In this document: in pieces, positions 1 to 35,174 of the stretch
Layout of the letters: the number at the start of each line of letters is the position of its first letter
How positions within the stretch are numbered: position 1 is the first letter of the stretch
Virus record (IMG/VR): IMGVR_UViG_3300048800_000035
Coordinates: 1-35,700 of that record
Length of the DNA stretch: 35,700 bases
Strand: one strand, 5' to 3'
Origin: a virus
The notes under the pieces: generated by a model
Told to the model about the DNA's origin: nothing
Databases searched by the model: none
What the model saw: the letters and a program-made list of their open reading frames with translations, nothing else
Position numbers and translations under genes: made by a program

Positions 1-336
1 GGCTCAAGTCGGGGCTCAAGTCAGGGCTCAAGTCGGGGATCAAGTCGGGGCTCAAGTCGGGGCTCAAGTCGGGGATCAAGTCTGGGATCAAGTCAGGGCT
101 CAAGTCTGGGCTCAAGTCTGGGATCAAGTCAGGGCTCAAGTCGGGGATCAAGTCAGGGCTCAAGTCTGGGATCAAGTCTGGGCTCAGGTCAGGGCTCAAG
201 TCTGGGATCAAGTCAGGGCTCAAGTCAGGGATCAAGTCAGGGATCAAGTCTGGGATCAAGTCAGGGCTCAAGTCAGGGCTCAAGTCGGGGCTCAAGTCTG
301 GGATCAAGTCGGGGCTCAAGTCGGGGCTCAAGTCTG
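1..336 (+). repeat. 28 tandem 12-bp repeats inside the DUF6745 gene
   Basis: Twenty-eight uninterrupted 12-bp units of the form GG[C/A]TCAAGTC[G/A/T]G run from the window edge. Only unit position 3 (C or A) and position 11 (G, A or T) vary, apart from one A-to-G change near 187. The array is in the reading frame of the downstream gene and encodes a tetrapeptide repeat [A/D]-Q-V-[G/R/W]. All three plus frames are open through the array, but only frame 2 continues into the conserved domain. The array probably extends left of the window. Confidence 0.95.
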
Positions 337-18190: not shown

Positions 18191-19476
18191 TGAGAATCCT
18201 TCTACTGGCCGATCACATGTGGAGGGACGTGGCCGGACTCGCCTCAACCCAAGTCCAGATCGAATCAATCTCCGATCACCACGTACAGATTTGCGACATT
18301 CACCTGTTCCCGCAGATGGTGGATGTATTCAAGCCAAATTTGGTAGTGATAAACGGACTCCACGACAGGGGGCGCAATCACTTGGTTGATACGGTCAGAC
18401 GGCGAGGGGGATTGTGCGCTGTACTTGCTTCCGAAGGAAGACCAAATACTGTCGAGCAACTAGACTGGACAGCGAGACAGTGGCCCGCAGAACTATGTGA
18501 CTTATACCTATCTTGGAGCGAGTGGTTTGATAAGGAACTACAAAGCAGGGTGCCATCGGCGGTTACGGGATGCCCTCGTTTCGACCACTACTTCCGTCCG
18601 TTCAATCGGGCCAAGACTATTTCGGAGTGGGGACTTGACCCAGATAAACCGATTGTGACGGTAGCAAGCAGCTTCCCGCAAGCCAAGTTTGCTGATTCAG
18701 GCGGAGACTTCTTGGTACAGGACTGGAAGAACCTCGGCGTATCCCAAATGGATATGTTCAAAGACCCGAGGGCAGTTGCGAAACTGGAAAAGACGGCGCT
18801 TGAAAGATTTTCTGTTTGGATAAGCGCCTTGCACTCCGAGAATCCGGGTATCCAGATTGTCCTAAAGCCACATCCCGCTGAGAACATTCAGTTTTGGCAG
18901 GAGCTTTCGGAATCAATTCACATCGTACTGAGTGACTATATTCAAACGATGTTGTCTATCTCGGACGTGCATGTGGCTAGAGTGGGGTGCCTGACAGTCC
19001 CAGAGGCGTGGTTATTCAATAAGCGTGTTGTACAGTGTCGCATGGGGAATGAAGTAGTAGATGGAGCCAGCGCCGCCGCTTTTGATCTTGGCTATCAAGT
19101 ATCAGACTTGCAAGACTTCCTCTTGGAAACTTCGGCGGGGTTGTCTTTGGGCGATTACGATTCAGATAGCATGTCCGACGACATTCAAGAATACGGGCGA
19201 AAGTATTTAGGGCCGATACCCGATTCCAGCAAGCGCGTAGCCAAGGCGCTGGTCAAGTTACTGGAAGAAAAGAACCCCAAGTTGGCATTTGATTTCACCC
19301 ATGCCGACAACATCGCGGTGAGGCAGTTGCTAGTACGACACGACATTGAACATGCCACTCCGAAGTTTGACCATATCAACCAGTTCTCGAAAGACGTAAT
19401 TCTGACCCGAATTGAAGAGGCCTTGCAGAAGGAGAGGAATTGGAATGAGCAAGAAAACCGACAAGTTGTTTGCTGA
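18190..19476 (+). CDS. GT-B glycosyltransferase-like surface-carbohydrate protein, 428 aa
   Basis: The N-terminal half has Rossmann-like strands (MRILLLADHMW, NLVVINGLHDR). The second half has VTVASSFPQAKF and a VLKPHPAEN motif, typical of GT-B enzymes related to polysialyl- and CDP-glycerol transferases and surface-carbohydrate biosynthesis proteins. A later VPEAWLFNKRVV segment fits the donor site loop. Donor and acceptor are unknown. A CMP-linked nonulosonate made downstream is one possible donor, but this is inference. The C-terminal ~80 residues are helical. Confidence 0.62.
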   Translation: MRILLLADHMWRDVAGLASTQVQIESISDHHVQICDIHLFPQMVDVFKPNLVVINGLHDRGRNHLVDTVRRRGGLCAVLASEGRPNTVEQLDWTARQWPAELCDLYLSWSEWFDKELQSRVPSAVTGCPRFDHYFRPFNRAKTISEWGLDPDKPIVTVASSFPQAKFADSGGDFLVQDWKNLGVSQMDMFKDPRAVAKLEKTALERFSVWISALHSENPGIQIVLKPHPAENIQFWQELSESIHIVLSDYIQTMLSISDVHVARVGCLTVPEAWLFNKRVVQCRMGNEVVDGASAAAFDLGYQVSDLQDFLLETSAGLSLGDYDSDSMSDDIQEYGRKYLGPIPDSSKRVAKALVKLLEEKNPKLAFDFTHADNIAVRQLLVRHDIEHATPKFDHINQFSKDVILTRIEEALQKERNWNEQENRQVVC

Positions 19477-19690
19477 ATATGCAGGCAAGGTAACGTCAGA
19501 TGTGTTTCTCGACGGGAACTATTCTGTTGTTTTATTGACGCACAAGAAGGTTCGAGTTATCGGGATTGCGAAAAGAAATCCTGAAAGCGATGTGTATATT
19601 GCGGAGCGTGGTGTTGAGATTGCTACTGCCCGCGCCCTACAAAATCTCGACAAACAAGTTCACCCGCGCCGTTACAAGAAAGTAAAATGA
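19445..19690 (+). CDS. Small basic hypothetical protein, 81 aa
   Basis: ATG at 19445, with AGGAGAGG upstream, lies inside the end of the previous gene (32-base overlap). The protein is basic with a VVLLTHKKVRVIGIAKRN strand pair and a C-terminal RRYKKVK. The stop overlaps the next ATG as ATGA. Function unknown. Confidence 0.6.
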   Translation: MSKKTDKLFAEYAGKVTSDVFLDGNYSVVLLTHKKVRVIGIAKRNPESDVYIAERGVEIATARALQNLDKQVHPRRYKKVK

Positions 19691-20640
19691 ACTTAGTTTT
19701 ATTCACAACTACCAGCCATCTCCTAGAGCATCTTGCCCTAGAGTCTATTCGGCTACACGAGACAGTTGTGGTAGATACGGACGACGCAACGCACAATCGC
19801 TTGACCGAGATCGGCATTAGCAGTATCCCCCTACGGAGTCCTGGCGACAAGGGGTGGGGCGAGCGGGACGCTGCCTTCGCTAAACTCGCCATGCCGGGAA
19901 CGCAACTACTCGAACCCTTCGACGGAACCGGTCTGCCGATGTGGAAGGTGATGTCGATTGACCGGCTAAACTTTTGGTACAGGGGCAAGCAGGCGAAGAA
20001 TCAGTATGAGTCGATCATGGCCCTTGAATGGGACAAGGCGCTTGTGCCGCTGGACATGCACAATCCCTTGCCGTTTGCGCTGGCGAGGCATTCGGATCGG
20101 TACGCCATTGGCGTACAAGTATCGACCCTCCGAACTAGGGAGTGGTATGACTTGCTCTCAACTCACACGGCGCAGTTCAACGAGTGGAAAGTCGGACAAC
20201 CTATCGAACAAAAGTGGTTAGCTAAGTTTGGCATACAATCCGACTTAGTACAGATTGAACCAGAACCAGTGGTAGAATTGCCATCGCAAGACAGCAAGAA
20301 GGCGATGCGTAAGGGGTTGGGCATACCTGAGGGGTATAAGGTTGGACTGGTGTTCTTTGACTCTCAATGCGAGTGGGAGTTTAGGCAGTTGATCCCGACG
20401 CTTCACTCGATGTACCAATTGATATACGTTTACCCGTTACATCCTTACGACTTGCGTAACTTGCAAGACCTTGGGGTAATCGGTGGGCAGATGAAGATAG
20501 CAGATAGTCTTTCGATTGAGACAGCGTGTGATGAGGCCGTTGTGATGCGGTTTGAGTACAATACTATCAAGGGCCGCGCCATACCCGTTAGGGTGATGGA
20601 CATTGCGGGAAGATTTTTGTCGCAGGAGTTATCTAGTTAG
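19687..20640 (+). CDS. Possible GT-B-like sugar-transfer protein, 317 aa
   Basis: The N-terminal strand-helix (LVLFTTTSHLLEHLALESIRL) and the C-terminal half, with KVGLVFFDSQCEWEFRQLI and QLIYVYPLHPYDL, resemble a two-domain GT-B layout. The YPLHP stands where the KPHP-type motif occurs in the neighbouring enzymes. Identity is uncertain, and it rests partly on its place between glycosyltransferases. An ATGA overlap couples it to the 81-aa gene. Confidence 0.5.
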   Translation: MNLVLFTTTSHLLEHLALESIRLHETVVVDTDDATHNRLTEIGISSIPLRSPGDKGWGERDAAFAKLAMPGTQLLEPFDGTGLPMWKVMSIDRLNFWYRGKQAKNQYESIMALEWDKALVPLDMHNPLPFALARHSDRYAIGVQVSTLRTREWYDLLSTHTAQFNEWKVGQPIEQKWLAKFGIQSDLVQIEPEPVVELPSQDSKKAMRKGLGIPEGYKVGLVFFDSQCEWEFRQLIPTLHSMYQLIYVYPLHPYDLRNLQDLGVIGGQMKIADSLSIETACDEAVVMRFEYNTIKGRAIPVRVMDIAGRFLSQELSS

Positions 20641-21818: not shown

Positions 21819-22601
21819 ATGGAAAATGACATCATGTATATTTATGCCTTAGTTGATCCGCGAGACAATAAAACAAGATATGTTGGTGTTACCAAGGACC
21901 CCCTAAATAGATTCCGGTCCCACCTGCGAGTTAATCAATCCGTGATGCGTCATGGTAAAAAAAGATGCGAGTGGATTGCGGAACTAAGGGAAGGTAGACT
22001 TGCTCCAAAAATGATTATCCTAGAGGAGTCCGACTGGGATAATTGGCAAAAGGCTGAACAATGGTGGATTCGCCATATGCGCGAGACTGGCTATGATCTT
22101 CTAAATGTCAACAACGGTGGAATCGGTCCAAACTCGATCAGTGATGAAACTAGAGCGAGTATGAGAAAATCACACTTGGGTGTTCACACTAGGCCGATGT
22201 CCGAAACCCATAAGAAGTCTCTTATAGCCAGTCGGAGAAAATTAATACCTACTCAAGTGTCAGAGATAAGAGTCTTGTTGGCAACTCGCGCTGATTTGAA
22301 TACAAAAGAGATTGGGTTGATGTATAACGTTCATTATGGAATAATAAACCAGATAGCATATCACAGGGGTTATTCCGAGTTTACTGATGGCGACGGGTTG
22401 CAAGATGCAATTGATTCCAAGAAACGCTGCAATACCCATCCCCAGAGACGGGGTGATTTAGTTTCGCATGATGTGGTTAGGGAGGTGAGATCATTGGCCG
22501 ATAAGGGGATTAGAATTATAAAAATATCTGAAATGGTTAATATAAAATATTACACAGCATTGAGTATCATTCGTCGCCAAACATATAAGTTGGTGAAGTG
22601 A
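21819..22601 (+). CDS. GIY-YIG homing endonuclease with NUMOD3 and HTH modules, 260 aa
   Basis: Site-specific nuclease that spreads its own gene. Residues 6-95 form the GIY-YIG domain: YIYALVD, then TRYVGVTKDPLNRFRSH with R31, and E80 in QKAEQWWI as the expected metal-binding glutamate. Residues 108-139 are a NUMOD3 DNA-binding motif (SISDETRASMRKSHLG, PMSETHKKSL). Two HTH-like repeats follow, about 145-185 and 215-257. The start is set to ATG 21819 by the promoter, 9 codons inside the longest frame. The stop forms a GTGA overlap with the following glycosyltransferase. The gene is more AT-rich than its neighbours, a sign of transfer. Confidence 0.88.
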   Translation: MENDIMYIYALVDPRDNKTRYVGVTKDPLNRFRSHLRVNQSVMRHGKKRCEWIAELREGRLAPKMIILEESDWDNWQKAEQWWIRHMRETGYDLLNVNNGGIGPNSISDETRASMRKSHLGVHTRPMSETHKKSLIASRRKLIPTQVSEIRVLLATRADLNTKEIGLMYNVHYGIINQIAYHRGYSEFTDGDGLQDAIDSKKRCNTHPQRRGDLVSHDVVREVRSLADKGIRIIKISEMVNIKYYTALSIIRRQTYKLVK

Positions 22602-23797
22602 AGAAATTTTCTATCTTTTGTGGCCGAGAGCATCATTATAAAAGACTTCACTCGGTAGTATCCGAATTGGAAAACAGGGGATGCGAAACCGGTTTTTATA
22701 TCAGCGACAATGGTTGGAACATTGATCCTGCTAGTGCATATTTGACTAGGTATGGGCAGACATTCAAACACTCGTTGGACTATTATTCACCAGATAGCAC
22801 ACCAGTCGTATCAAACATGGTACAAAAAGCCTTGCTTGGGTTTGGAATACCAGAGTTCGATAATGACTTGTTTGGTTCCATAGACCCCCATTCAATTGTT
22901 TATGCGCTTCGTGAATTCTCTGAATTTCTAGTTGCGACTGACAAGATGCTTGATATAGAAAAACCAGACAGTGTGCTAATTTTGCACTCGAATAATGCGT
23001 GGTGTCGCGCACTTGCCTATCTTTGCTCCGAAAGACAAATTCCAGTTTCGTCTTTTCAAGAGGGGCTACTTCGCAACAGGGATCAAGAGACACAGGGAAA
23101 ACAATCATCGGCGGCCGACTATGTTTCAACACTGTTTGTTTGGTCAGAAGCATCCAGGCAAGCCTACCTTGCCGCTGGCATCCCAGAAGAAAAGATCGTC
23201 GTTACGGGAATGTCACACCTTGACCAGTATCTAACGCTGATTCAAGAGGGAAAGATCAACAAGCCTTACATCAAGGCACAGTTTGGATTCAGGCCTAGCC
23301 AGACGCTTATCACACTCGCCCTGCCACAACTTTCCCGCTTTGACGGCGATGTGAATGTGACGCTTACCCAAATGTCCGAGTGGGCATCTAAGAACTTAGT
23401 CCAACTAGCTATCAGACTCCATCCATTCGAGTCACCAGACTCCGTTATGTCATTGCAAAACGGCATAAAGAATCCGATGGTGAAAGTCATTACGCAGGGA
23501 GAGTTGCCAGAGTTGATTTTAGCGTCGGATGTGGTAGTATCCCAACATTCTACGGCGGCAGTTGAGGCGCTGGCGTTGGGCGTTCCACTGGCGGAGATCG
23601 ACCTGAGTAATTTTGGCGTACTCGAATCTTTGGCCTCTCAGCATGTTGCAATCAGTATCAACAGTGGCGAGTTGGATAAACTTCTCAAGCCGATGGATGG
23701 CATCATTCCGCAGGTGCTTGTGCCGTGGAAAGTAACCAACCTGGGGCAGTTGGACGGACACGCGACGGAACGAATTGTGGATAGGTTGCTGGCGTAA
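22598..23797 (+). CDS. GT-B glycosyltransferase-like protein, 399 aa
   Basis: The sequence follows the GT-B layout of UDP-sugar epimerase and polysialyltransferase-like enzymes: FSIFCGREHHYKRLHSVV at the start, and PVSSFQEGLLRNR and TLFVWSEASRQAYLAAGIP in the middle. It then has the interdomain VVTGMSHLDQY, a LAIRLHPFESPDS strand with an RLHP motif, and ASDVVVSQHSTAAVEALALGVP in the donor-site region. The sugar donor is unknown. GTG starts in a GTGA overlap with the GIY-YIG gene, so its translation now depends on the mobile gene or the shared message. TAATG joins it to the next gene. Confidence 0.68.
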   Translation: MKKFSIFCGREHHYKRLHSVVSELENRGCETGFYISDNGWNIDPASAYLTRYGQTFKHSLDYYSPDSTPVVSNMVQKALLGFGIPEFDNDLFGSIDPHSIVYALREFSEFLVATDKMLDIEKPDSVLILHSNNAWCRALAYLCSERQIPVSSFQEGLLRNRDQETQGKQSSAADYVSTLFVWSEASRQAYLAAGIPEEKIVVTGMSHLDQYLTLIQEGKINKPYIKAQFGFRPSQTLITLALPQLSRFDGDVNVTLTQMSEWASKNLVQLAIRLHPFESPDSVMSLQNGIKNPMVKVITQGELPELILASDVVVSQHSTAAVEALALGVPLAEIDLSNFGVLESLASQHVAISINSGELDKLLKPMDGIIPQVLVPWKVTNLGQLDGHATERIVDRLLA

Positions 23798-25029
23798 TGC
23801 AGATTAGCCTAATAATTCCAACGCATAATCGAAGCGGGGCGCTCACAAGACATCTTGAAATGCTTGCGCGACAGACACTTGACCCAGCGTTGTTTGAGAT
23901 TGTCGTGGTGCAAGACGGCGTGGATACAATCATGCTCCCCGATATAAAGCGCCGTTCTGAAAAGAACATGCAGTTGAAGGTTGTTGAGTCGGAACACAAG
24001 GGGCCAGCGGCAGCAAGAAACCTCGGCGCGAAGTATGCTGATGGAAACGTGCTATGCTTTGTTGGAGACGACACATTTCCACATCGCAGCTTGCTCTACA
24101 GACATTGGCTACAACATTTCAGCATGGCAAGTAATGGACAAGTAGGGGCGGTACAGGGGTATACGGACTGGTGGGCAGACCTTCCGCCATTAGACTTCGA
24201 GAACTTTTTGTTGGAGTCTGGACTACAAGCAAACTGGTCTAGTCTCAAGAACGACAATGGCACTTGGAAAACAGACGCCAGTGGGTTTTGCCTGACAACT
24301 AACTTCTCGATTGCTAAGTCCGAGTTTGAAAGACTCGGCGGATTCAGCGAAGAGTTTCCCCACGCCGCTTGGGAGGACGTGGAGTTTGGCTACAAGGGAA
24401 CCAAGTTCGGCCTCAAGACTGCTTTTGAACCACAAGCTGTCAATCATCACGCTCACCGGCAGACGTTCGACGGGTATGTTGTAAGGAACCTGAAAGAGGG
24501 GGCGAGTAGGATTATCCTGTCTGGGTTACATCCCGAATCGGCGTGGGGATTGCTTGATCCGAATGCACTTCGGGAAACAAACAGTGGAATGTTTCAAGAG
24601 GCCGTGACTGTGGCACGGGAATTGAACCACGCCCATGCACCTGACATACAGAAACTTCGCAAGGAACGCTGGCAACGAGTCTTACAGTTAGCAAGCCTTG
24701 AAGGGATACGCAGGGGCATTGCCGAGAAGTCTAAGAAGTATCCGGTGTGGCAGGCAATTCAACACCTTCACCTGCAAGAACAGACCCAGCATGTCGTGAC
24801 AACGGCTAGGAACATCGAGACTGGCAATCTTGCTTACGCCGAGACAAGCGCGGAGTGGGCCTTACAAGCCAACATGGACAACTGGGCGCTGTGGATGGTG
24901 AGGGCGGAAGTAAGCAAGGTGATGGGAGATAAAGTCTCGGCGCTGAGATATGCTTCTACTGGAACCAAGTTGGGGCCTGGCGAGGCGTGGCCGATAGAAT
25001 TTATCAAATCAATAAGTGAGGCGCAATGA
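23797..25029 (+). CDS. GT2 (GT-A fold) glycosyltransferase, 410 aa
   Basis: A typical family 2 transferase: SLIIPTHNRSGALTRHLEML nucleotide-binding start, VVVQDG, a GPAAARNLGAKYADGNVLCFVGDDT region with the metal-binding GDD, and an LGGFSEEFPHAAWEDVEFGYK motif with the ED that holds the catalytic base. The last ~150 residues are helical and repeat-like (NLAYAETSAEWALQANMDNWALWMVRAEVSK), suggesting a short TPR-like tail. Donor and acceptor cannot be predicted. ATGA couples it to the next gene. Confidence 0.85.
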   Translation: MQISLIIPTHNRSGALTRHLEMLARQTLDPALFEIVVVQDGVDTIMLPDIKRRSEKNMQLKVVESEHKGPAAARNLGAKYADGNVLCFVGDDTFPHRSLLYRHWLQHFSMASNGQVGAVQGYTDWWADLPPLDFENFLLESGLQANWSSLKNDNGTWKTDASGFCLTTNFSIAKSEFERLGGFSEEFPHAAWEDVEFGYKGTKFGLKTAFEPQAVNHHAHRQTFDGYVVRNLKEGASRIILSGLHPESAWGLLDPNALRETNSGMFQEAVTVARELNHAHAPDIQKLRKERWQRVLQLASLEGIRRGIAEKSKKYPVWQAIQHLHLQEQTQHVVTTARNIETGNLAYAETSAEWALQANMDNWALWMVRAEVSKVMGDKVSALRYASTGTKLGPGEAWPIEFIKSISEAQ

Positions 25030-25805: not shown

Positions 25806-26906
25806 ATGTTTGAAATTAAGCGCAGAGTAGACAGCAAACTCCCCGACAAAGAAACTCTACAAACCCTATATTGGAGTGAAATGTTGACCATGCGGGAGAT
25901 AGCAGATCGCTATGACACGCATCCCGCTACCGTCTTGTACCATCTTCGCAAGCAAAATATTCAGATAAGAGACAGAAGCGAATCGTCAATAATTGCAACC
26001 AGCAAGGGTAGGCGGTCGCATGGCAAGCGCAAATCCCCGGAGGCTGAATATACCATCGACGGTAAAATAATTTGTGATGCTTGCAAAGTTCCGAAGGACA
26101 AGAAGGAGTTTAGAGATAGGCCCGATACCAAGCGTGGAGTTTCTAGGCGATGTAACAGTTGCGCTACTGCGCGTGGTCAGTTGTGGAAACGCAGAAAGGA
26201 AATGTATCAGCGGGGAGTGGCGCTGTGCGCTAGATGTATTCGATGGTTGCCATTGGCGGAGTTCTCGGCAGACAAGACCAACTATAAATATGGTATTGCT
26301 GCTACTTGTAAAAGGTGTTCTTCTACCAATGCTGAATACCACGACTATCTTGTAGAGCGAGAAACATTGCTATCTTTCGGGATGAAATATTGTCCCGCTT
26401 GTGAACTCGTTTTCAGTGTTGACAAATTTGGGCCTCACTCCGCGTCGACGGATAAACTACAATCTGTTTGCAAAAAGTGTCGTTGGAAAATGAACAATGC
26501 GTTGTATCGACAGAAAAACCCGGAAATAAAGAGGGGCTTTTCTTCTGACGAATTGAAATTGCGGAGGAAGCAAACCGTCAAGCGGTTCTATCAAAATCAC
26601 AAGGAAATAATTCTTGTAAAACACAAATTGCGTATAGCGCGCAAGCGGAGTGGCGACGGCGGTTATACCATTGACCAGTGGACCATGTTGGTTTCTTTTT
26701 ACTCGCCCAATGGGGAATGTGTTTGTTGCAAAAAGAATGAATTGCGTCTCGGCCCGGATCACGTTAAGGCATTGGCGCGAGGCGGAAGTGGTCTTATCTT
26801 TAACATTCAGCCGATGTGTTTACCGTGCAACAATAAAAAACACGTTCGGGAAATAGAATATCGGTTTGACGGTGGCGTATATGCCAGATCGCTGATGGGA
26901 ATATAA
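25806..26906 (+). CDS. HNH homing endonuclease with HTH and three zinc ribbons, 366 aa
   Basis: The N-terminal 50 residues hold an HTH (YWSEMLTMREIADRYDTHPATVLYHLRKQ). Three repeated zinc-ribbon units follow, each CxxC, about 20 residues with an F, then CxxC: CDACKVPKDKKEF, CARCIRWLPLAEF and CPACELVFSVDKF. A basic linker leads to a C-terminal HNH domain with CVCC, the DH of LGPDHVKALARGG, FNIQPMCLPCNNKK and two bound-metal cysteine pairs. This domain order is typical of phage homing endonucleases. ATG 25806 is chosen because of the -10 at 6 nt; a GTG at 25743 is possible. The stop is TAATG with the next glycosyltransferase. It is AT-richer than its neighbours. Confidence 0.87.
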   Translation: MFEIKRRVDSKLPDKETLQTLYWSEMLTMREIADRYDTHPATVLYHLRKQNIQIRDRSESSIIATSKGRRSHGKRKSPEAEYTIDGKIICDACKVPKDKKEFRDRPDTKRGVSRRCNSCATARGQLWKRRKEMYQRGVALCARCIRWLPLAEFSADKTNYKYGIAATCKRCSSTNAEYHDYLVERETLLSFGMKYCPACELVFSVDKFGPHSASTDKLQSVCKKCRWKMNNALYRQKNPEIKRGFSSDELKLRRKQTVKRFYQNHKEIILVKHKLRIARKRSGDGGYTIDQWTMLVSFYSPNGECVCCKKNELRLGPDHVKALARGGSGLIFNIQPMCLPCNNKKHVREIEYRFDGGVYARSLMGI

Positions 26907-28039
26907 TGCAAATTTGCCACATATTTGCTGACGGTTTCAGCGAGCTGAATTCCACGCAGTTCCGTGGGATTATATTCATTGATGCTCTCAATCGGGCAGG
27001 GCACTCCGCCAGTCTTATCGGGGTCGAAAATTGGATGAAGGATACTTGTCGCGAAAAATTGGCAAGTGCCGATCTTATTGTTGTTGAGCGCATCCTTGTA
27101 GAAGAGGCGGTCGAAAGAGCGTCGTTTTGGAAGTCGCGTGGCAAGGCGATTGTTATTGACATTGATGATTCATATTCTCTCCTGCAACCATTTGAAGAAT
27201 CGGGGAACCAGGCCGCTAAATTCTGGAAACTCGGAATGGTTGATGTGAATTACGGCAATGGCATTACCTATTCCAAGAAACTTGCCGTATCCCCACTGGA
27301 TCAATTCCGACAGGGCTTGAAATATTGCACTGGACTGACTTCGCCCTCGCGTATTCTGAACGAAGATTGGAAGATGTATGCCCCCACCTGGGTACTGCCT
27401 AACTATTTGGACTCCCGCCGATATTTGCCCCACAAGAATATAAAAATCAAGTCCAGAGCAGATGAATTGATTATTGGATGGGGCGGGAGCATGTCTCATA
27501 AATTGTCGTTCGAGCGTAGTGGTGTAGCAATCGCCCTGCGCCGTGTCCTAAAGAGGCACAAGAATGTCAAATTCATGCTCTGCGGAGATAAAAGGATTCT
27601 CGACATCGTGAAACTTCCGCCGGAGCAAGTGGTATTCAGGAACTATGTGACCTATCAGGAATGGCCTAAGTCTGCCAAGAGTTTTGACATCGGCCTTGCT
27701 CCATTACAGGGCCGCTATGACTCGTCGCGATCCGAGATCAAGGCCGAGGAATACTCGACACTGGCTATTCCATTTGTGGCTACTGGATGTCCAACCTACG
27801 AACGGTTTGAACAGAAGAACATCGGTCTTTACGTACAGGATTCATTGGAGTATGATGCGGCAACTGTTGAGAAGCGTGCTGTAGAATGGGAACAGAAGTT
27901 GGAAGATATTATTACCCACTACGCCGATTACAAACAAAAGGCGCTTGATGATTCAGTCAACCTTGCGCCGTATTGGTGGGTTGATAATAGGGTCCAAGAT
28001 ATTGTAAAGACATACGAAAGCATCATCGCACATGGCTAG
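26906..28039 (+). CDS. GT4-like glycosyltransferase, 377 aa
   Basis: GT-B enzyme with an N-terminal FIDALNRAGHSASLI region and a central LTSPSRILNEDWKMYAPTWVLPNYLD (the interdomain strand of GT4 enzymes). The C-terminal domain has IIGWGGSMSHKLSFE, VKFMLCGDKR, VVFRNYVTYQEWPKSAKSFDIGLAPLQ and SEIKAEEYSTLAIPFVATGCPTYE, where the ExxxxE-like donor site is replaced by K-A-E-E. Donor unknown. It starts as TAATG after the HNH gene and overlaps the dehydratase gene by 8 bases. Confidence 0.82.
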   Translation: MQICHIFADGFSELNSTQFRGIIFIDALNRAGHSASLIGVENWMKDTCREKLASADLIVVERILVEEAVERASFWKSRGKAIVIDIDDSYSLLQPFEESGNQAAKFWKLGMVDVNYGNGITYSKKLAVSPLDQFRQGLKYCTGLTSPSRILNEDWKMYAPTWVLPNYLDSRRYLPHKNIKIKSRADELIIGWGGSMSHKLSFERSGVAIALRRVLKRHKNVKFMLCGDKRILDIVKLPPEQVVFRNYVTYQEWPKSAKSFDIGLAPLQGRYDSSRSEIKAEEYSTLAIPFVATGCPTYERFEQKNIGLYVQDSLEYDAATVEKRAVEWEQKLEDIITHYADYKQKALDDSVNLAPYWWVDNRVQDIVKTYESIIAHG

Positions 28040-28985
28040 TATATTGTTGGTCGGCGGAAGCGGCTTCATTGGTAGCCACATTTCACGCTACTTGCTTGAC
28101 AATCCCGAATATGATCGAGTTGTTATCCTATCAAGGGACTGGCACAAACAACTGGCCCTGCGGAAATCTCTAGGTAATCCAGATAAGTTCCGCTGGTTCA
28201 TTGGGGACATTCGGGACAAAGATAGACTCACAAGAGCCTTCAACGGTATTGATGTAATTGTACACGCCGGGGCGATTAAGGATCAAGTGTCGTCAGCTTA
28301 CAATCCTCGTGAAACGATGCTCACAAATGTGGTTGGAACACAGAATGTTATTGACGCGGCGATTGATTGTGGCGTGAAAAAAGTCTTGTTTATTAGCAGT
28401 GATAAGGGCACTGCACCCATTTCTTGCTACGGACACAGTAAGGCTATGGGAGAATCCCTGATTGTTGCTGCCAACACCTATTCACCTAATGGAACCAGGT
28501 TTGCTTCTTGCAGATATGGCAACGTGGTAAATTCCGCATCAAGTGTTTTGCCAATCTTTAGGCAACAGCGCGAAACAGGTACTCTCTCAATTACCGATCC
28601 GCGCTCAACAAGGTTCTGGATTACGCCGGAGCAAGCAGTTTTGTTGATATTTAAAAGCCTTGCAGAGATGCTTGGCGGCGAGGTGTTCGTTCCAAAACTT
28701 CCAGCATCACTGATTATTGACCTCGCTACAGCGGTTGCGCCAGAGGCCAAGATTGATATTATCGGCTTGCGCGTGGCTGAAAAGATTCACGAAATCATGG
28801 TCAACAATGTCGAGGCGGGCAGGACGCAAGACGTTGGATGGGGATACCGCATTGAGCCGGAGTTCAAGTTTTGGGATTCCACCGTAGCCTATCCGTCTGG
28901 TTCCCCTGTGCCGTGGGACTGGACTTACTCCTCTGCCTCGGCCACTCGCCTCACCGTGGAACAACTTCGGGCGATGATCGAATGA
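28032..28985 (+). CDS. pseB: PseB-like UDP-sugar 4,6-dehydratase/5-epimerase, 317 aa
   Basis: Extended short-chain dehydrogenase with NAD(P)-binding GGSGFIG at 8-14, GDIRD at 58-62, and the FISSDKGTAPISCYGHSK region: D124, K125 and Y133 match the Asp-Lys-Tyr set of PseB/FlaA1 enzymes, and YxxxK is Y133-K137. A later RYGNVVNSASSVLPIF and RFWITPEQAV are typical of PseB and CapD-like dehydratases. PseB converts UDP-GlcNAc to UDP-4-keto-6-deoxy-L-AltNAc, the first step to pseudaminic acid. Other 4,6-dehydratase activities are possible. Downstream genes strongly favour the pseudaminic-type route. Confidence 0.82.
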   Translation: MASILLVGGSGFIGSHISRYLLDNPEYDRVVILSRDWHKQLALRKSLGNPDKFRWFIGDIRDKDRLTRAFNGIDVIVHAGAIKDQVSSAYNPRETMLTNVVGTQNVIDAAIDCGVKKVLFISSDKGTAPISCYGHSKAMGESLIVAANTYSPNGTRFASCRYGNVVNSASSVLPIFRQQRETGTLSITDPRSTRFWITPEQAVLLIFKSLAEMLGGEVFVPKLPASLIIDLATAVAPEAKIDIIGLRVAEKIHEIMVNNVEAGRTQDVGWGYRIEPEFKFWDSTVAYPSGSPVPWDWTYSSASATRLTVEQLRAMIE

Positions 28986-29353
28986 TGAACGCCTTTGAAC
29001 TTACAGCGCAAGAACTTGGAATTACCGTGGCCGAGGTAGAGTGGGCCGTAAAGATTTCAGTTGTACATCGTAAGCATCGCAAGCAACTTAGGGAGAGACA
29101 GCGCATGGCAAATGCTGAGGCGCTGAATAAACACGAATTGGCAGAGGCTAAAGCGAAATATCCCAATCAGTGTTTCTGCATTGAGGAAGGACTTGATCCC
29201 AAGCACGATTGGAATAGCGATAAACTTATCCGCTACGACAAGAAGCGGAGATATACATATCTTGGATTCTCGACCGAGGAGTTCTATGATGATCCGATAT
29301 ATACATGCTCCACTTGCGGCAAGGAATGGCGCATTCGGATAGCAATAGCATGA
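28982..29353 (+). CDS. Small zinc-binding hypothetical protein, 123 aa
   Basis: ATG 28982 overlaps the pseB stop as ATGA; a second ATG follows at 28985. A highly basic helix (HRKHRKQLRERQRMANAEAL) is followed by C-F-C and a C-terminal CSTCGKEW, which together could form a zinc site. Unknown role. It interrupts the pathway genes. Confidence 0.6.
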   Translation: MMNAFELTAQELGITVAEVEWAVKISVVHRKHRKQLRERQRMANAEALNKHELAEAKAKYPNQCFCIEEGLDPKHDWNSDKLIRYDKKRRYTYLGFSTEEFYDDPIYTCSTCGKEWRIRIAIA

Positions 29354-29859
29354 TTCACAACTTCATCTGGTGGTTTGACAACACGGCTGACGCTTACACT
29401 CAATCTGTCATCGGAAACTTTACCGCCGATCTGATTCTATTCAGTCTGCCTGCGCTGTGGGTGTTCTTGAGGACTATACGGCAGGGCCGTATCTTGAAGA
29501 ACTTCGGTCGTGAGATGAAGGTAAGTCCAGACGGGCAGGCGGCGGTAAATGCTGTTGACGGTGAGATTCTTATGGCCGGCAAGGGCGGTATTGAGAACCT
29601 CACTCATACTAAGGCGGTCGAAGAAAACCCCCTGTTTGCTTCCAATTCAAAGTGGATCGCCTTTCAGAGGCAGGTTGAGGGGGCGTGGGAAGTGTGGGCA
29701 ATCGACGTTGAAACTCGCAAGACCGTTAGCCTTGGAACGGTTGCCGGAGACAAGCGCCGAATGATTGAGTGGCAACCGAACAACGATCTTGTTATTCAGA
29801 TGGGCGGAACGTACCTAACGGTTTACCAGCAAGAGATTGAAAAGAGACTCAAGCAATAG
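29350..29859 (+). CDS. Membrane-anchored protein with TolB/WD40-like C-terminal part, 169 aa
   Basis: The first 45 residues contain one transmembrane helix (TADLILFSLPALWVFLRTI), then a positive stretch. The rest looks like two beta-propeller blades: MKVSPDGQAAVNAVDGEI, then SNSKWIAFQRQVEGAWEVWAIDVETRK and IEWQPNNDLVIQM. This is too short for a full propeller. Its role in a sugar cluster is unknown. It starts as ATGA. Confidence 0.6.
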   Translation: MIHNFIWWFDNTADAYTQSVIGNFTADLILFSLPALWVFLRTIRQGRILKNFGREMKVSPDGQAAVNAVDGEILMAGKGGIENLTHTKAVEENPLFASNSKWIAFQRQVEGAWEVWAIDVETRKTVSLGTVAGDKRRMIEWQPNNDLVIQMGGTYLTVYQQEIEKRLKQ

Positions 29860-29892
29860 GATTATGTCAATGCAAATTTACAACGGTGAATT

Positions 29893-30975
29893 ATGCAAGG
29901 TGTAATACCGTACTCGACGAGTTTTATCACCGATGAGGACAAGAAGGCGGTGCTGGCCGTTCTGGATTCCAACTGGCTCACTCGCGGCAAGTTGACCAAG
30001 GAACTTGAGGCCAAACTCTGTGAACTGACGGGCAAGAAACATGCCGTAATGGTCAACAATGGGACTACTGCATTGTTGGCGGCGGTTGAGGCAACGCATA
30101 CCTTTGATGTTTATACTCCTGTTCTGACGTTTTCGGCTGTAGCAAATGCAGCGGAGATGGCATCTACCCAGCCTGAAATACATTTCCACGATGTTTGTGA
30201 AGATACGCTTTGTGTAGATTGGAACCAGTCCGCAGGCATTGATGGAACAATAGTCGCAATGGATTATGCGGGCTATCCGAGTCTTAGATCGTGGCCTCCG
30301 CATTATATGGGTGATATTGTTTTGGATGCCGCTCACAGTATCGGGGCAACGATCAACGGTGAACCCAATACTAAGTTTGCCAACATTGCCACTTATTCCT
30401 TCCATCCTACTAAAACGGTAACGTCCGCTGAGGGTGGGGCCATCGTTTGCGATAGTGATAGTATCTATGAGGAATTACTTCTTCTCCGGAACAACGGTAT
30501 TGACATTAAGACTGGATTGCGCGTTACAACCGGGTTGAACTTGCATTGCGACGAACTCTCCTGTGCCCTACTCCTGTCGCAACTAACCCGACTGAAATCC
30601 AACATTGCCCGCAAGCATGAAATCGCCAAGATGTATATGGATAGGTGGAAAGATGATCTGCGCCTCATTCTTCCTGTCTACGATGAGGGACATGCCTTCC
30701 ACCTGTATCCCGTTCGACTGTCTACCGCCGTGAATTGCACCGTTGAGGAATTTCGTGCCAAGTTATTGACTTACGGCGTTGCTAGCCAAAGACATTACCG
30801 ATTGTTGAGCAACATGCCTATCTATGCCTACATGAATTTGGACGGTTGTTACCCCGTAGCAGAACGCGCTTACGAAAGGCTTGTGTCAATCCCCATGTAC
30901 GCGGGCTTAGACGATAACCAAGTTCGCATTGTTATGAACGCAGTAGATGGGAGCTTAGATGCCTACTCAAGATAG
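29893..30975 (+). CDS. pseC: PseC-like DegT/DnrJ/EryC1/StrS aminotransferase, 360 aa
   Basis: PLP-dependent sugar aminotransferase. NNGTTAL at 55-61 holds phosphate; D145 in VLDAAHS pairs with the PLP ring nitrogen; K174 in YSFHPTKTVTSAEGG is the Schiff-base lysine. The length and the start (SFITDEDKKAVLAVLDSNWLTRGKL) are typical. PseC adds an amino group from glutamate at C4 of the PseB product. About 33 bases separate it from the previous gene, with a short frame of 13 codons (29864-29905) overlapping its ATG. It overlaps the next gene by 17 bases. Confidence 0.85.
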   Translation: MQGVIPYSTSFITDEDKKAVLAVLDSNWLTRGKLTKELEAKLCELTGKKHAVMVNNGTTALLAAVEATHTFDVYTPVLTFSAVANAAEMASTQPEIHFHDVCEDTLCVDWNQSAGIDGTIVAMDYAGYPSLRSWPPHYMGDIVLDAAHSIGATINGEPNTKFANIATYSFHPTKTVTSAEGGAIVCDSDSIYEELLLLRNNGIDIKTGLRVTTGLNLHCDELSCALLLSQLTRLKSNIARKHEIAKMYMDRWKDDLRLILPVYDEGHAFHLYPVRLSTAVNCTVEEFRAKLLTYGVASQRHYRLLSNMPIYAYMNLDGCYPVAERAYERLVSIPMYAGLDDNQVRIVMNAVDGSLDAYSR

Positions 30976-31171
30976 CAGTTGGTTTGTTGCAACGTGGAAA
31001 AGCGATAGTTGGGGGGAAGTGTCTGAATCGTATCTATACAAGGAACAGGCACTCAACTGGCTTGACAACAAGAAGTCGGCGGAGAAGGTAGTTGACTCTG
31101 CTATTCATACTTTTCCAAACTTTCGGACGGCGCAGTATTACCGTAAGCACGGGGAATATTACCACCAATGA
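30959..31171 (+). CDS. Small hypothetical protein, 70 aa
   Basis: ATG 30959 lies 17 bases inside pseC and the stop overlaps pseF as ATGA. The sequence is Trp/Tyr-rich (DSSWFVATWKSDSWGEVSESYLY) with a LNWLDNKKSAEKVV helix. No family recognised. Its tight placement suggests co-expression. Confidence 0.55.
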   Translation: MPTQDSSWFVATWKSDSWGEVSESYLYKEQALNWLDNKKSAEKVVDSAIHTFPNFRTAQYYRKHGEYYHQ

Positions 31172-31866
31172 ATGTAGCGATCATTCCGGCCAGGGGAAAC
31201 AGTAAGTCGGTCGCCCGGAAGAATCTTCGCCCACTGGCGGGCAAGCCCCTTTTACAATGGACGATTGACGCCGCCAAAGAAGCCAACGTATTCGATCACA
31301 TCGTTCTTACTTCCGAGGATGACGAGATATTGAAACTTGGTTTGCGAAACAATATTATGACGCTGGTTCGCCAACCCTGGCTAAGTCAGGATTTCGTGCA
31401 ATCATCGGAGGTTGCGCTTGACGCTTTACGCCAGTTGCAGTTGGCTAATATCTATCCTGATATAGTGACGATCTTGCAACCAACCTCTCCGTTTAGAACG
31501 GCGGAAGATATTGGCGGTGCCGTAGACCTATTCAATAACTGGGACTTGCCGATTGAGAAACGCGGAACCATCATCTCGGCGTATAAAAGCGCCAAGTATC
31601 ATTGGCACGACGAGGGTTGGAACGACAAGCCTCTGTACCACAATCCAGAAAAGAGGTTGGGCCGACAGTGGGAATCTGATATGGGTGTATTTGTGGAACA
31701 GGGGGCAGTCTACATCGTTTCTGCTAATCGTTTCGGCAGAGAAGGTCAGTACAGACTTCCGCCGTACCAGATTTTTGAGATGTCGGAAAGTCATTCGATT
31801 GACCTAGACTCGCCAGAGGAGTTTGAACAAGCGGAACACATGCTTGAAAGAGGACTTGTGAAGTGA
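31168..31866 (+). CDS. pseF: PseF-like CMP-nonulosonic acid cytidylyltransferase, 232 aa
   Basis: Activates the finished nine-carbon acid with CTP to its CMP form. The N-terminal IIPARGNSKSVARKNLRPLAGKPL matches the CTP-binding motif of NeuA/PseF enzymes. It is followed by HIVLTSEDDEIL, SSEVALDALRQL, a TILQPTSPFRT strand and a late IDLDSPEEFEQAE with the metal-binding aspartates. Length is as expected for the single-domain group. ATGA start and GTGA end. Confidence 0.85.
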   Translation: MNVAIIPARGNSKSVARKNLRPLAGKPLLQWTIDAAKEANVFDHIVLTSEDDEILKLGLRNNIMTLVRQPWLSQDFVQSSEVALDALRQLQLANIYPDIVTILQPTSPFRTAEDIGGAVDLFNNWDLPIEKRGTIISAYKSAKYHWHDEGWNDKPLYHNPEKRLGRQWESDMGVFVEQGAVYIVSANRFGREGQYRLPPYQIFEMSESHSIDLDSPEEFEQAEHMLERGLVK

Positions 31867-32540
31867 AGATAGCCCTGCTTGCTAAACCGTCCCACGAGTC
31901 AAGTCAGTTGTATCAATACCTGCTTGGGCGAGGGCATGTGGTTTGGCAGACAGATGAGAAAGTCACGGCGAAAGAACTGTCGAGATACGACATTGGGGTC
32001 AGCTGGTTCTACAAATTCATACTTCGCCAACCAGAACTTGATGCGGTGAAACTGGGTATAGCCAACAATCACATAGGTTTTTTGCCCGAGGGCAGAGGGG
32101 CCAACCCGAACATCTGGCCGATAGCGCATCGTATTCAAGCGGGTGTCACGCTTCACTACATGACGGCAGGTGTAGATGAGGGGCCAATCATCGCAAGACA
32201 ACCAATCGAGATAGAGGCAATCGACACTTCCAAGACGCTCTACAACAAACTTGTAGAGGCGCAGTACAATCTATTTCTTATGTGGTGGCCGTCGATTGAA
32301 CTTCTAGGCAACCAAGGACTTCGAGCACCATCTTTCGCCCAGGAAGAGGGAGCTTGGCATACTTACAGGGTCAAAGATACAGAGTGGTTTGACGACCTTG
32401 ATAATCGGTACGGCGACTCTGCAAGGCTTATGATCGACCAACTCAGGGCCAGAACCTTTCCGCCGTACAATGGTTGCTACTTTCGCGATCCAAAGACTGG
32501 CAAGAAGGTCTTTGTGGACGTGTCATTACGCTATGAATAA
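31863..32540 (+). CDS. Formyltransferase in the PseH position, 225 aa
   Basis: Belongs to the methionyl-tRNA/sugar formyltransferase fold that uses 10-formyl-tetrahydrofolate. The motif NNHIGFLPEGRGANPNIW gives N68 and H70, and D105 in AGVDEGPII completes the Asn-His-Asp triad. The N-terminal half is the folate-binding domain; the C-terminal domain is short and ends in TFPPYNGCYFRD, as in sugar N-formyltransferases. It is shorter than Fmt (about 310 aa). It lies between pseF and pseG, where the acetyltransferase PseH might be expected. The likely task is to formylate the C4 amino group of the PseC product. Substrate is inferred from context only. Confidence 0.8.
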   Translation: MKIALLAKPSHESSQLYQYLLGRGHVVWQTDEKVTAKELSRYDIGVSWFYKFILRQPELDAVKLGIANNHIGFLPEGRGANPNIWPIAHRIQAGVTLHYMTAGVDEGPIIARQPIEIEAIDTSKTLYNKLVEAQYNLFLMWWPSIELLGNQGLRAPSFAQEEGAWHTYRVKDTEWFDDLDNRYGDSARLMIDQLRARTFPPYNGCYFRDPKTGKKVFVDVSLRYE

Positions 32541-33243
32541 TCCGATTTTGTACCTCCACGCCGACTTGAACTGTGGACTGGGCCACAGAAGGCGTCTAGA
32601 AACGCTACAGACGGCTTGGGACGCGCCTAGCGAGTGGTTTGGTACAGATATACCCTCTGTTGCTGGAATTTGCGTGGTGGACGATTATTGCTTCACTGTA
32701 CAATCGTTCCAAGAATTGAAGGCAAACGGGCATTTGGTTGCCTACTTTACCGAGTTCGCGAACGATTATCCAGTGGATATTCTAATCAATCAAAACATCG
32801 GCGCGGAGAAGTTGAAGTACAATGCGCCTATTCAGTTACTCGGCACTCGTTTCTTCATGCTCCGACAGGAATATTTGACTGTCCAGAAGTACGGGCATGG
32901 TGCGATCTTCGATGCTGATTCGGTAGATAGAAAACTGTCACCGCTTGAGTTTGGTCAGACGATGGCGGAAGCTAAGGCTATCATTTGTTCCGCAGGGATT
33001 ACCGCTTACGAGGCACTGTATCTTGAGAAGCCCTTACTGCTGAGAATGTCGGCAGAGAACCAGCGCCGAACGTATGAGGGGTTGATTGATAACGGCTACG
33101 CAATACCATATAATGACATCGCAATAGAAAGGTTGAGTTACGGATGGATTCCAACAGTGAAGTCGGGAAGAAACCTCGTGGACGGCCTCGGGCCGAGTCG
33201 CGTTTGCCAAGCACTCCGCCTGATGTGGGAACAGACCCACTAA
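32533..33243 (+). CDS. pseG: PseG-like UDP-sugar hydrolase, 236 aa
   Basis: GT-B-like enzyme that removes UDP from the di-N-acylated altropyranose before aldol condensation. NCGLGHRRR (H18, matching the catalytic His of PseG) is the conserved GxGHxxR motif, and SAGITAYEALYLEKPLLLRM near residue 165 matches the donor-binding loop. At 236 residues it is shorter than the usual ~275, mainly through a reduced first domain. The start is ATG 32533, overlapping the previous stop by 8 bases. Its last 100 bases may also be read by the next gene. Confidence 0.78.
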   Translation: MNNPILYLHADLNCGLGHRRRLETLQTAWDAPSEWFGTDIPSVAGICVVDDYCFTVQSFQELKANGHLVAYFTEFANDYPVDILINQNIGAEKLKYNAPIQLLGTRFFMLRQEYLTVQKYGHGAIFDADSVDRKLSPLEFGQTMAEAKAIICSAGITAYEALYLEKPLLLRMSAENQRRTYEGLIDNGYAIPYNDIAIERLSYGWIPTVKSGRNLVDGLGPSRVCQALRLMWEQTH

Positions 33244-33425
33244 TCTACGGTGTGTGGTTGAACAAGCATCTTGATTGGTTGAAGTACACCAGCGGCGAGA
33301 TTGTCTATTCCGATTACCTCGGATTGGCAAGGGCGGAATTGACCTCTTACGAGCGGAACGGCGGAAGTCATGCTAAGGTTATGATTATCGGGGCAGACGG
33401 TGAGCCGCAGGAACTAAATGACTAA
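33144..33425 (+). CDS. Hypothetical protein with AT-hook-like start, 93 aa
   Basis: From ATG 33144 the product begins MDSNSEVGKKPRGRPRAES, which contains the GRPR core of an AT hook that could bind the minor groove of AT-rich DNA. This start overlaps pseG by 100 bases. A GTG at 33225 would reduce the overlap to 19 bases and remove the motif, giving 66 residues with VWLNKHLDWLKYTSG. No good Shine-Dalgarno supports either. The stop overlaps the next gene by 8 bases. Confidence 0.5.
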   Translation: MDSNSEVGKKPRGRPRAESRLPSTPPDVGTDPLIYGVWLNKHLDWLKYTSGEIVYSDYLGLARAELTSYERNGGSHAKVMIIGADGEPQELND

Positions 33426-34245
33426 AACATTAATCATCGCTGAAATTGGATCAAGCCACAATTCTTCATTCGACAGGGCTGTTGCTCTGATTGATGCTGC
33501 CGCTGACGCCGGGGCCGACTACGCCAAGTTCCAACTATTCACTGGCGATGATCTTTGGAGTCGAGAGCCGGAACTGACCAACACCCGCAAGGTCGCTTTG
33601 CCCGAGGCGTGGATTCCCAAACTCATGCAACGGTGTGTTGACAAGAAAATTGCCTTTCTGTGTACGCCGTTCTCGCCTCATGCGGTTGAGGTATTGCGGA
33701 AGAACGGCGCAACGTCCTACAAGATTTCGTCGGGTGACATTACCTATCGGCCCCTACTCGAAGCGGTGGCGGAAACCCATCGGCTAGTCTACCTATCGGT
33801 TGGAGCATCCACCTTTGAGGAAATAGACGCCGCACTTGCAATTCTAAAGAACGCCGAGGACGTGGTAATTCTGCATTGTGTTCCAGAATACCCCGCCACG
33901 CCTGCTACTGCTAATATGCGCCGTATCCTAGACCTCATTGAACGCTACAAGTTGGGCAAGAACATTGGAGTTGGTTTGTCGAGCCACCTTCGCGAGTGGT
34001 GGGTTGACGTTGCTGCGGTTCCATTCGGACTCACTTGCATCGAGAAGCACATTGATACGGTCGGAAAGACAGGGCCGGAAGGGGGGCATTCACTTGACCC
34101 ATTTGAGTTTACGCAGTTTGTTACGGCGGTTCGGGAAGTTGAACAAGCGATGGAAGTCCATAAAGAGTTCACTGAGGGCGAAGTCTATGCGCGTCTCAAC
34201 TATCGCAGGAATCCGACATATTGGACTCGTCCACTCCAATCTTGA
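33418..34245 (+). CDS. pseI: NeuB/PseI-like nonulosonic acid synthase without SAF domain, 275 aa
   Basis: Condenses a six-carbon sugar with phosphoenolpyruvate to a nine-carbon acid. The TIM barrel starts with IIAEIGSSHNSS and GADYAKFQ, then FLCTPFSPHAVEVL, YKISSGDI, and the two His residues expected to hold the metal: H211 in IEKHID and H224 in EGGHSL. The protein ends near residue 275, so the C-terminal SAF (antifreeze-like) domain of the usual ~340-aa enzymes is missing. The usual D-H-x-x-S-L-E is altered to G-G-H-S-L-D. A second homologue follows, and either could be the true PseI. Confidence 0.78.
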   Translation: MTKTLIIAEIGSSHNSSFDRAVALIDAAADAGADYAKFQLFTGDDLWSREPELTNTRKVALPEAWIPKLMQRCVDKKIAFLCTPFSPHAVEVLRKNGATSYKISSGDITYRPLLEAVAETHRLVYLSVGASTFEEIDAALAILKNAEDVVILHCVPEYPATPATANMRRILDLIERYKLGKNIGVGLSSHLREWWVDVAAVPFGLTCIEKHIDTVGKTGPEGGHSLDPFEFTQFVTAVREVEQAMEVHKEFTEGEVYARLNYRRNPTYWTRPLQS

Positions 34246-34336
34246 TCCGCTGGACTGGTATCTATTCTTGCATGGGGCTAGAATCGTCCTGTTTATTCTT
34301 GCCATTCTAATTATCAGTTACTTTCTAAAGCGATAA
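34187..34336 (+). CDS. Small single-pass membrane protein, 49 aa
   Basis: ATG 34187 lies 59 bases inside the synthase gene, with GAGGG upstream. After a polar N-terminus there is a hydrophobic segment (IVLFILAILIISYFL) near the C-terminus and a final K-R, as in a tail-anchored protein. It fills the whole space between two synthase genes; stop and next ATG are one base apart. Function unknown. Confidence 0.5.
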   Translation: MRVSTIAGIRHIGLVHSNLDPLDWYLFLHGARIVLFILAILIISYFLKR

Positions 34337-34337
34337 C

Positions 34338-35174
34338 ATGACAAAACTTTGGGCCGAGATTGGGATAAACCACCAAGGCAGCGTTGAGATTGCTATAAAG
34401 ATGATTGACGCCGCCCAACGCGCCGGGGCTGATTTAGTCAAGTTCCAAATGCGCGTTCCAGAACTTGCCGTTCCAAAATCACAGTGGGATAAGCCGAAGG
34501 TTTGGCAAGGCCAAGAAATGACTTACCTAGAATACAAGAAGAAGTTGGAACTATCTCGCGACGATTACTATCGCATAGATCGACATTGCGCCGAGGTGGG
34601 GATAAATTGGACCGCCTCGGTATGGGATTATGAGAGCGCGGTGTTCCTCGTATCCTTTGCCGACCGCATCCCGTTTATCAAAATCCCCAGTGCCAAGTTG
34701 ACTGACCACGTGCTTTTGAAACAAGTATCTCGCGGGTTCAATATGCCGATTGTTCTAAGCACCGGAATGTCAACCGTGGATGAGATTGAGGCAGCAATTG
34801 ATGTAATTCCGTCCGAGAACCTTGTAATGCTCCTGCATTGCAACAGTTCATATCCAGCGTGTGATGCAGAGCAGAACCTAAGCGTGATTGAAACACTCAG
34901 ACAAGACTTCAACTTTCCAGTTGGGTTTTCGTCCCACCACAAGTCGCCATTCCCAGCCCTGTATGCGGCGGCGAGATATGGCGTTCCCGCTGTAGAAACG
35001 CATTTCACATTAGATAGAAGTTGGGAGGGAACCGATCATGCCAGTTCTCTTGAATCTGATGGACTCGAATTACTCGCTAGGGAGTTTCTGCGCATCCCAA
35101 TTGTTCTGGGCGACGGGCAAAAAGTCGTTTACGATTCAGAACTTCCGAGCAGGCTCAAGTTGAGAGGCTACTAA
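34338..35174 (+). CDS. Second NeuB/PseI-like synthase without SAF domain, 278 aa
   Basis: A paralogue of the upstream synthase that is closer to the family consensus. It has WAEIGINHQGS, GADLVKFQMR, FIKIPSAKLTD, the STGMSTVDEIEAAI loop, LLHCNSSYP, FPVGFSSHH, VETHFTLDR with H222, and GTDHASSLE with H234. The SAF domain is absent here too. The two copies share little beyond the core motifs, so they are old paralogues or separate gains. They might make two acids or act together. The stop overlaps rtcB as TAATG. Confidence 0.82.
   Translation: MTKLWAEIGINHQGSVEIAIKMIDAAQRAGADLVKFQMRVPELAVPKSQWDKPKVWQGQEMTYLEYKKKLELSRDDYYRIDRHCAEVGINWTASVWDYESAVFLVSFADRIPFIKIPSAKLTDHVLLKQVSRGFNMPIVLSTGMSTVDEIEAAIDVIPSENLVMLLHCNSSYPACDAEQNLSVIETLRQDFNFPVGFSSHHKSPFPALYAAARYGVPAVETHFTLDRSWEGTDHASSLESDGLELLAREFLRIPIVLGDGQKVVYDSELPSRLKLRGY

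Follow-up and report, generated by a model that had tools for sequence, protein, structure and literature searches.

Can a bacteriophage assemble a sialic-acid-like sugar from UDP-GlcNAc with enzymes of its own, and can a formyltransferase take the place of the acetyltransferase PseH along the way? These questions are raised by a gene cluster at positions 28032-35174 of a 35,700-nucleotide stretch of viral DNA (hereafter the window), which covers bases 1-35700 of the 99,998-bp contig IMGVR_UViG_3300048800_000035 of IMG/VR. An earlier reading, made from the letters alone (the sequence-only reading), had described seven open reading frames (ORFs) there as PseB, PseC, PseF, a formyltransferase, PseG and two PseI/NeuB-like synthases, and our searches recovered all seven, in that order and on the plus strand. 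With moderate confidence, and on the strength of these homologies, we propose that the phage encodes a streamlined route to a CMP-7-N-formyl-pseudaminic-like acid, which glycosyltransferases (GTs) would transfer, most likely to proteins of the phage particle.

A formyltransferase in the position of pseH

Pfam and NCBIfam matches, far stronger than chance would give, provide a homolog for every step from UDP-GlcNAc to the CMP-sugar, as the sequence-only reading had held, with the formyltransferase standing in for PseH (Table 1). The best NCBIfam models for PseB, PseC, PseF and PseG are all Pse models: TIGR03589 for PseB (321 bits, cut-off 407.75; next best FnlA, 183), TIGR03588 for PseC (229 bits, cut-off 423.5; LegC model, 120), TIGR03584 for PseF (88 bits, cut-off 205.7) and TIGR03590 for PseG (56 bits, cut-off 153.55). 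Since the curated equivalog cut-offs are reached neither by these four proteins nor by the two synthases, the enzyme names used here mean "like" and do not denote equivalog membership. The catalytic segment "SSDK...CYGHSK" is retained in PseB, where it aligns with that of a Neobacillus PseB, as are the segment of the pyridoxal phosphate-binding lysine of PseC, "SFHPTK", and four motifs of PseG, "GLGHRRR" (GxGH), "VVDDY" (DxY), "AGITAYE" (AGxTxYE) and "ENQ". Apart from the two synthases, the pathway enzymes are single-copy on the contig, and a phmmer search found no second relative of PseB. Two ORFs unrelated to the pathway separate PseB from PseC. The start of the formyltransferase gene overlaps PseF and its stop codon is overlapped by PseG (TATGAATAA), so that the arrangement resembles a translationally coupled operon.

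If the enzymes share the substrates, stereochemistry and activities of their homologs, PseB and PseC would convert UDP-GlcNAc to UDP-4-amino-4,6-dideoxy-AltNAc, and the formyltransferase would formylate the 4-amino group, later N-7, in place of the acetylation carried out by PseH. The short PseG-like enzyme would then take off UDP. Condensation of the sugar with phosphoenolpyruvate by one or both NeuB-type synthases would follow, and after it attachment of CMP by the PseF-like enzyme. Finally, the upstream GT-B enzymes would pass the sugar on, with cytoplasmically made proteins of the phage particle as the most likely acceptors.

The formyltransferase carries the argument. The Asn-His-Asp triad that had been read from its sequence (N68, H70 and D105) is intact, being invariant in an alignment of 21 sequences. 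Its top sequence matches in the PDB are the entries 6ci2 and 6ci4 of PseJ (roughly 32% identical where aligned), the latter being, according to its title, PseJ soaked with UDP-4-amino-4,6-dideoxy-L-AltNAc, the PseC product. With this Anoxybacillus kamchatkensis enzyme (6ci2, 6ci4, 6ci5 and 6edk) it shares the triad, the GA-D/N-PN-I/L-W motif, the FxxxWP segment, the fold and the pathway neighbors; unlike it, the window enzyme is phage-borne and has an extra C-terminal N_formyltrans_C element. The enzyme scores 106 bits against a PseJ-like profile from which the window sequence was left out. An AlphaFold model (predicted local distance difference test, 80), for which the input alignment consisted of PseJ-like sequences, reached VIA Z scores of 21.5 with PseJ, 22.7 with the LgrA F-domain (in effect a tie) and at most 18.5 with dTDP-sugar formyltransferases, whereas Foldseek E-values ranked Rv3404c first and PseJ third. 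Because of the PseJ-like input alignment and this ranking, the fold comparison leans to PseJ but does not decide.

A PseH just outside the window would have undone the proposed replacement. None was found: the PseH model TIGR03585 had no match at E<=1 on the whole 99,998-bp contig, and PseH-like acetyltransferases of phages, used as queries, had no relative there. The replacement itself thus withstands scrutiny, the enzyme being PseJ-like in sequence and fold and lying in the position of pseH. That position is known from Tannerella forsythia, whose genes run pseB, pseC, pseF, pseH, pseG, pseI with hypothetical ORFs interspersed, pseH sitting where the phage has its formyltransferase gene (PMC6120980). 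The two systems differ in that the Tannerella locus serves cellular protein O-glycosylation, uses a PseH for N-acyl transfer and makes the sugar Pse5Am7Gra (PMC6120980, PMC6388019).

Another counterpart is a chromosomal locus of Neobacillus (L042), with the order pseBC-F-G-J-I. Like the window it combines PseB, PseC, a cytidylyltransferase, PseG, a PseJ-like formyltransferase and PseI with a GT close by that belongs to the TIGR04396 family (341 bits, a strong member). Unlike the phage, Neobacillus has full-length PseB, PseC, PseG and PseI that exceed their cut-offs, a single PseI with a SAF (antifreeze-like) domain, and PseG ahead of the formyltransferase. In a Thermosyntropha metagenome-assembled genome (L041), the corresponding end of a locus of this kind is present. 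Bacteria usually place an acetyl group at the position of these sugars that is formylated here, and formylation by PseJ instead of acetylation is already known in bacterial pseudaminic acid synthesis. On the basis of the Tannerella gene order, the contig without a PseH match and the Neobacillus and Thermosyntropha loci, we regard the replacement of PseH by a formyltransferase as sound, and as established bacterial chemistry.

Table 1. Genes of the nonulosonate cluster and upstream glycosyltransferase genes, in window coordinates (E-values unless bits are given)
Feature	Position	Strand	Matches and motifs
BFO_1060-family/surface-carbohydrate GT	18190..19476	+	NF046086 133 bits, TIGR04396 97 bits (both below cut-off); "SEG" and "KPHP"
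GT-like ORF, HP motif	19687..20640	+	no Pfam, PHROGs or NCBIfam match
Second BFO_1060-family GT	22598..23797	+	NF046086 70 bits, TIGR04396 63 bits (both below cut-off); "QEG" and "RLHP"
GT2-family glycosyltransferase	23797..25029	+	PF00535 3e-15
GT4-like glycosyltransferase overlapping the PseB start	26906..28039	+	phrog_7162 1e-14; PF13692 2e-4, below cut-off
PseB-like UDP-GlcNAc 4,6-dehydratase (inverting type), 317 aa	28032..28985	+	TIGR03589 6e-96
Small ORF between PseB and PseC	28910..29353	+	no NCBIfam family; weak zinc-ribbon match, below cut-off
ORF between PseB and PseC, weakly PD40/TolB-like	29305..29859	+	PF07676 8e-4, below cut-off
PseC-like pyridoxal phosphate aminotransferase, 360 aa	29893..30975	+	TIGR03588 6e-68
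PseF-like CMP-nonulosonate cytidylyltransferase, 232 aa	31168..31866	+	TIGR03584 6e-25; PF02348 1.7e-15
PseJ-like N-formyltransferase, 225 aa	31863..32540	+	PF00551 3e-13; PF18216 3e-13; PDB PseJ 4e-20
Short PseG-like UDP-sugar hydrolase, 236 aa from ATG 32533	32533..33243	+	TIGR03590 4e-15
Small ORF between PseG and the first synthase	33144..33425	+	ORF list only
NeuB/PseI-like synthase A, 275 aa	33418..34245	+	PF03102 8e-54
NeuB/PseI-like synthase B, 278 aa	34338..35174	+	PF03102 9e-63

Candidate users of the sugar and its destination

Five GT-like genes upstream had been proposed as users of the sugar. For two of them, at 18190 and 22598, this proposal has gained ground: both match the BFO_1060 (NF046086) and surface-carbohydrate (TIGR04396) families, the latter being that of the GT beside the Neobacillus PseJ locus, as homologs that score below cut-off (200 bits for the BFO_1060 family). 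Each carries an E-G pair and an HP motif, recalling those described for sialyltransferases and for GtfS, the pseudaminic acid transferase encoded downstream of the Tannerella forsythia pse genes (PMC6388019). Judged by these sequence features, the two proteins are candidate users of the sugar; use by any of the five is unproven.

Decoration of the virion is the destination that we prefer, by analogy with the virus HRPV-1, whose spike protein VP4 bears 5-N-formyl-legionaminic acid, a modification linked to adsorption (PMC6137143). The likeness would lie in an N-formylated nonulosonic acid on the virion; in HRPV-1 the archaeal host is credited with the synthesis of the sugar and the virus has no pathway genes (PMC6137143). 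The sugar might instead go to the host surface, in lysogenic conversion or superinfection exclusion. Phage enzymes that alter pseudaminic acid capsules of the host are known (PMC12053666), and the GT2 and GT-B enzymes of the window could lengthen host glycans, but searches for a Wzx-type flippase and a PF02397 initiating transferase found neither, and no integrase appeared among the families scanned, none of the searches being aimed at integrases; we consider this destination possible, though on the unlikely side. A PF00303 thymidylate-synthase-type hydroxymethylase was also sought and not found. The lack of matches to a flippase, PF02397 and PF00303 makes a self-contained host-surface route and a hydroxymethyl-type base modification less likely, if still conceivable. 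DNA base modification was set aside, since it found no further support.

Uncertain pseudaminic identity of the product

The sequence-only reading had named a 7-N-formyl pseudaminic-like acid as the product. The formyl group agrees with the enzyme in the place of PseH; a strictly pseudaminic identity fared less well, and several features weigh against it and against the route that we favor as a whole, beginning with the sub-cut-off scores given above. PseG, for which ATG 32533 is the more probable start (the longest would give 257 residues), is strongly shortened: in the alignment it is without two internal stretches of bacterial PseG, and it does not have the full-length two-domain architecture. 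Both synthases contain the NeuB TIM-barrel domain (PF03102) and end, in the alignment, before the SAF domain, for which a contig-wide search at E<=5 gave no match. Synthase A scores 195 bits with the NeuB model and 159 with the PseI model, synthase B 217 and 140, the PseI cut-off being 340.25. In synthase A the alignment shows GPEGGH where relatives have GPDH, while the active-site motifs of synthase B are intact. The formyltransferase has at residues 186-224 a PF18216 element (N_formyltrans_C) of the dTDP type, which was not seen in the aligned viral and bacterial PseJ-like relatives; we therefore call the enzyme PseJ-like and do not file it as PseJ. Finally, the exact sugar and its acceptor are unproven. 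Owing to the shortened PseG, the SAF-less and NeuB-leaning synthases and the altered GPDH motif of synthase A, we regard the exact product as uncertain.

The preference of both synthases for the NeuB model, the opposite of Neobacillus PseI (505 bits with the PseI model and 305 with the NeuB model), could mean that the synthase step differs and that the product is another stereoisomer, an N-formylated nonulosonic acid other than pseudaminic. We hold this to be unlikely, as PseB (of the inverting type) and PseC clearly prefer their own models over those of FnlA/LegB and LegC, which would fix the L-altro series if specificity follows homology.

The shortened PseG, the absent SAF domains and the altered motif of synthase A could also reflect decay of the nonulosonate branch, such that the UDP-4-formamido sugar itself would be the GT donor and PseG and the synthases would be relics or otherwise employed. 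Against this, the frames of the cluster are all open and tightly packed, the CMP-transferase is retained, and synthase B has kept its motifs and falls in a clade of SAF-less phage synthases (support 100/99), whose other members are from a Kyanoviridae record and from an uncultured phage of large size. Synthase A groups with the SAF-less synthase of another phage contig (L033), on long branches. Moreover, a Leptospira NeuB homolog of solved structure (6ncs) has 290 residues, about the length of the SAF-less enzymes. Decay of the branch thus appears quite improbable to us.

Very improbable is a formyltransferase of the dTDP-4-amino-sugar type (VioF/Rv3404c) that serves another pathway, to which the PF18216 element, the 92 bits with the dTDP-Qui4N formyltransferase model NF005755 (below its equivalog cut-off of 238) and the first place of Rv3404c in Foldseek would point, but which is at odds with the lead of PseJ in PDB sequence matches and, subject to the PseJ-like input alignment of the model, over the dTDP-sugar enzymes in VIA Z, with the score from the window-free PseJ-like profile, with the lack of a second PseB relative on the contig and with the overlaps of the gene with PseF and PseG.

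Recurrence among viral contigs and the contig itself

A phage operon dedicated to such a sugar had been expected to be unusual, an expectation that did not hold. A scan of IMG/VR with a two-sequence formyltransferase alignment as query returned 31 further loci with a PseJ-like formyltransferase, 12 of which lie within about 10 kb of genes resembling PseB, PseC and NeuB (L013, L020, L023, L025, L027-L032, L035 and L037); single-protein queries drew no relatives, whether PseB, the formyltransferase, synthase B or the GT at 22598 was used. PseH-like matches occur in 7 of the 31 loci, none above cut-off. Phage structural genes were confirmed on seven contigs (L010, L012, L013, L016, L030, L033 and L040), and of 16 marine-type relatives PF07068 and PF03237 marked 3 as tailed phages, the remainder resting on the IMG/VR classification. 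These contigs, for example L013, L020, L023, L027, L030 and L033, resemble the window in that the same enzyme classes adjoin one another. They differ from it in that most have one SAF-bearing synthase, PseG was detected in a single locus (L033, on a contig that carries a terminase), and their formyltransferases are without the extra C-terminal domain of the window enzyme. In the cultured-phage collection, no protein matched the PseJ-like enzymes clearly and over the full length. An apparent PseC and formyltransferase of Pseudomonas phage Y5 (H3/H14) were set aside, the neighborhood reading as a bacterial arn-type locus, a call made from unannotated ORFs of a record labeled UNVERIFIED.

We suggest tentatively, and with well under even confidence, that diverse tailed phages use a reduced enzyme set, with a short PseG and SAF-less synthases that perhaps act in pairs, to build an N-formylated nonulosonic acid as a coat for their own particles, a virus-encoded counterpart of the host-made sugar on HRPV-1. 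Phages that alter the pseudaminic acid of their host have already been described (PMC12053666), and an apparently whole route from UDP-GlcNAc to the CMP-sugar without PseH, carried by a phage, goes a step beyond this and beyond bacterial PseJ. The replacement chemistry is not new; what stands out is its setting in a virus that appears to encode the whole route, the recurrence of that route, the absence of SAF from the synthases and the shortness of PseG. The repeated finding of these enzyme classes, in numerous viral contigs that look unrelated, points to a trait common among phages. Confirmation of the route would make testable both the self-glycosylation of virions with sialic-acid-like sugars by phages and the dispensability of the SAF domain, absent from both synthases and from the phage clade.

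Several of the viral loci have peculiarities of their own. In L013, L020, L023, L025 (split), L027, L028 and L032, an SAF-type and an SAF-less synthase both lie near PseB, PseC and the formyltransferase, and the two may form a paired enzyme. Very short NeuB/PseI-like ORFs of 210-230 residues (L010:10962-11609, L016:1205-1894 and L036:1262-1897) are flanked by a PseJ-like formyltransferase and a PseB-like gene, and those of L010 and L016 adjoin phage packaging and head genes. At L023:8641-9940, a second formyltransferase-like gene stands beside an LmbE-type deacetylase (BshB1-like, 69 bits), ahead of the PseJ-like gene; the two could exchange an acetyl for a formyl group on the sugar. By reading, L033:5746-7091 resembles this pair. 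On the phage contig L034, a PseH-like acetyltransferase (10481-11053; 62 bits, below cut-off) adjoins the PseJ-like formyltransferase.

The contig that contains the window encodes a major head protein (phrog_10, 5e-65), a terminase, a tape measure protein and a portal protein (PF04860) of tailed phages, its terminase and capsid having only distant relatives among deposited phages. The same degenerate 12-bp tandem repeat, which encodes (A/D)QV(G/R/W) units in an open frame, occupies window positions 1-338 and, at the far end of the contig, its final ~300 bases. As both ends lie inside one repeat, the contig probably represents almost the entire genome, circularly permuted and broken within that repeat; the IMG/VR record itself classes the contig as linear, and circularity is our inference. 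An RtcB RNA ligase gene lies immediately 3' of synthase B (window 35174 onward, to contig position 36370), another RNA ligase-like gene is found at window positions 9843-11114, and a radical SAM protein is encoded at contig positions 77528-78562.

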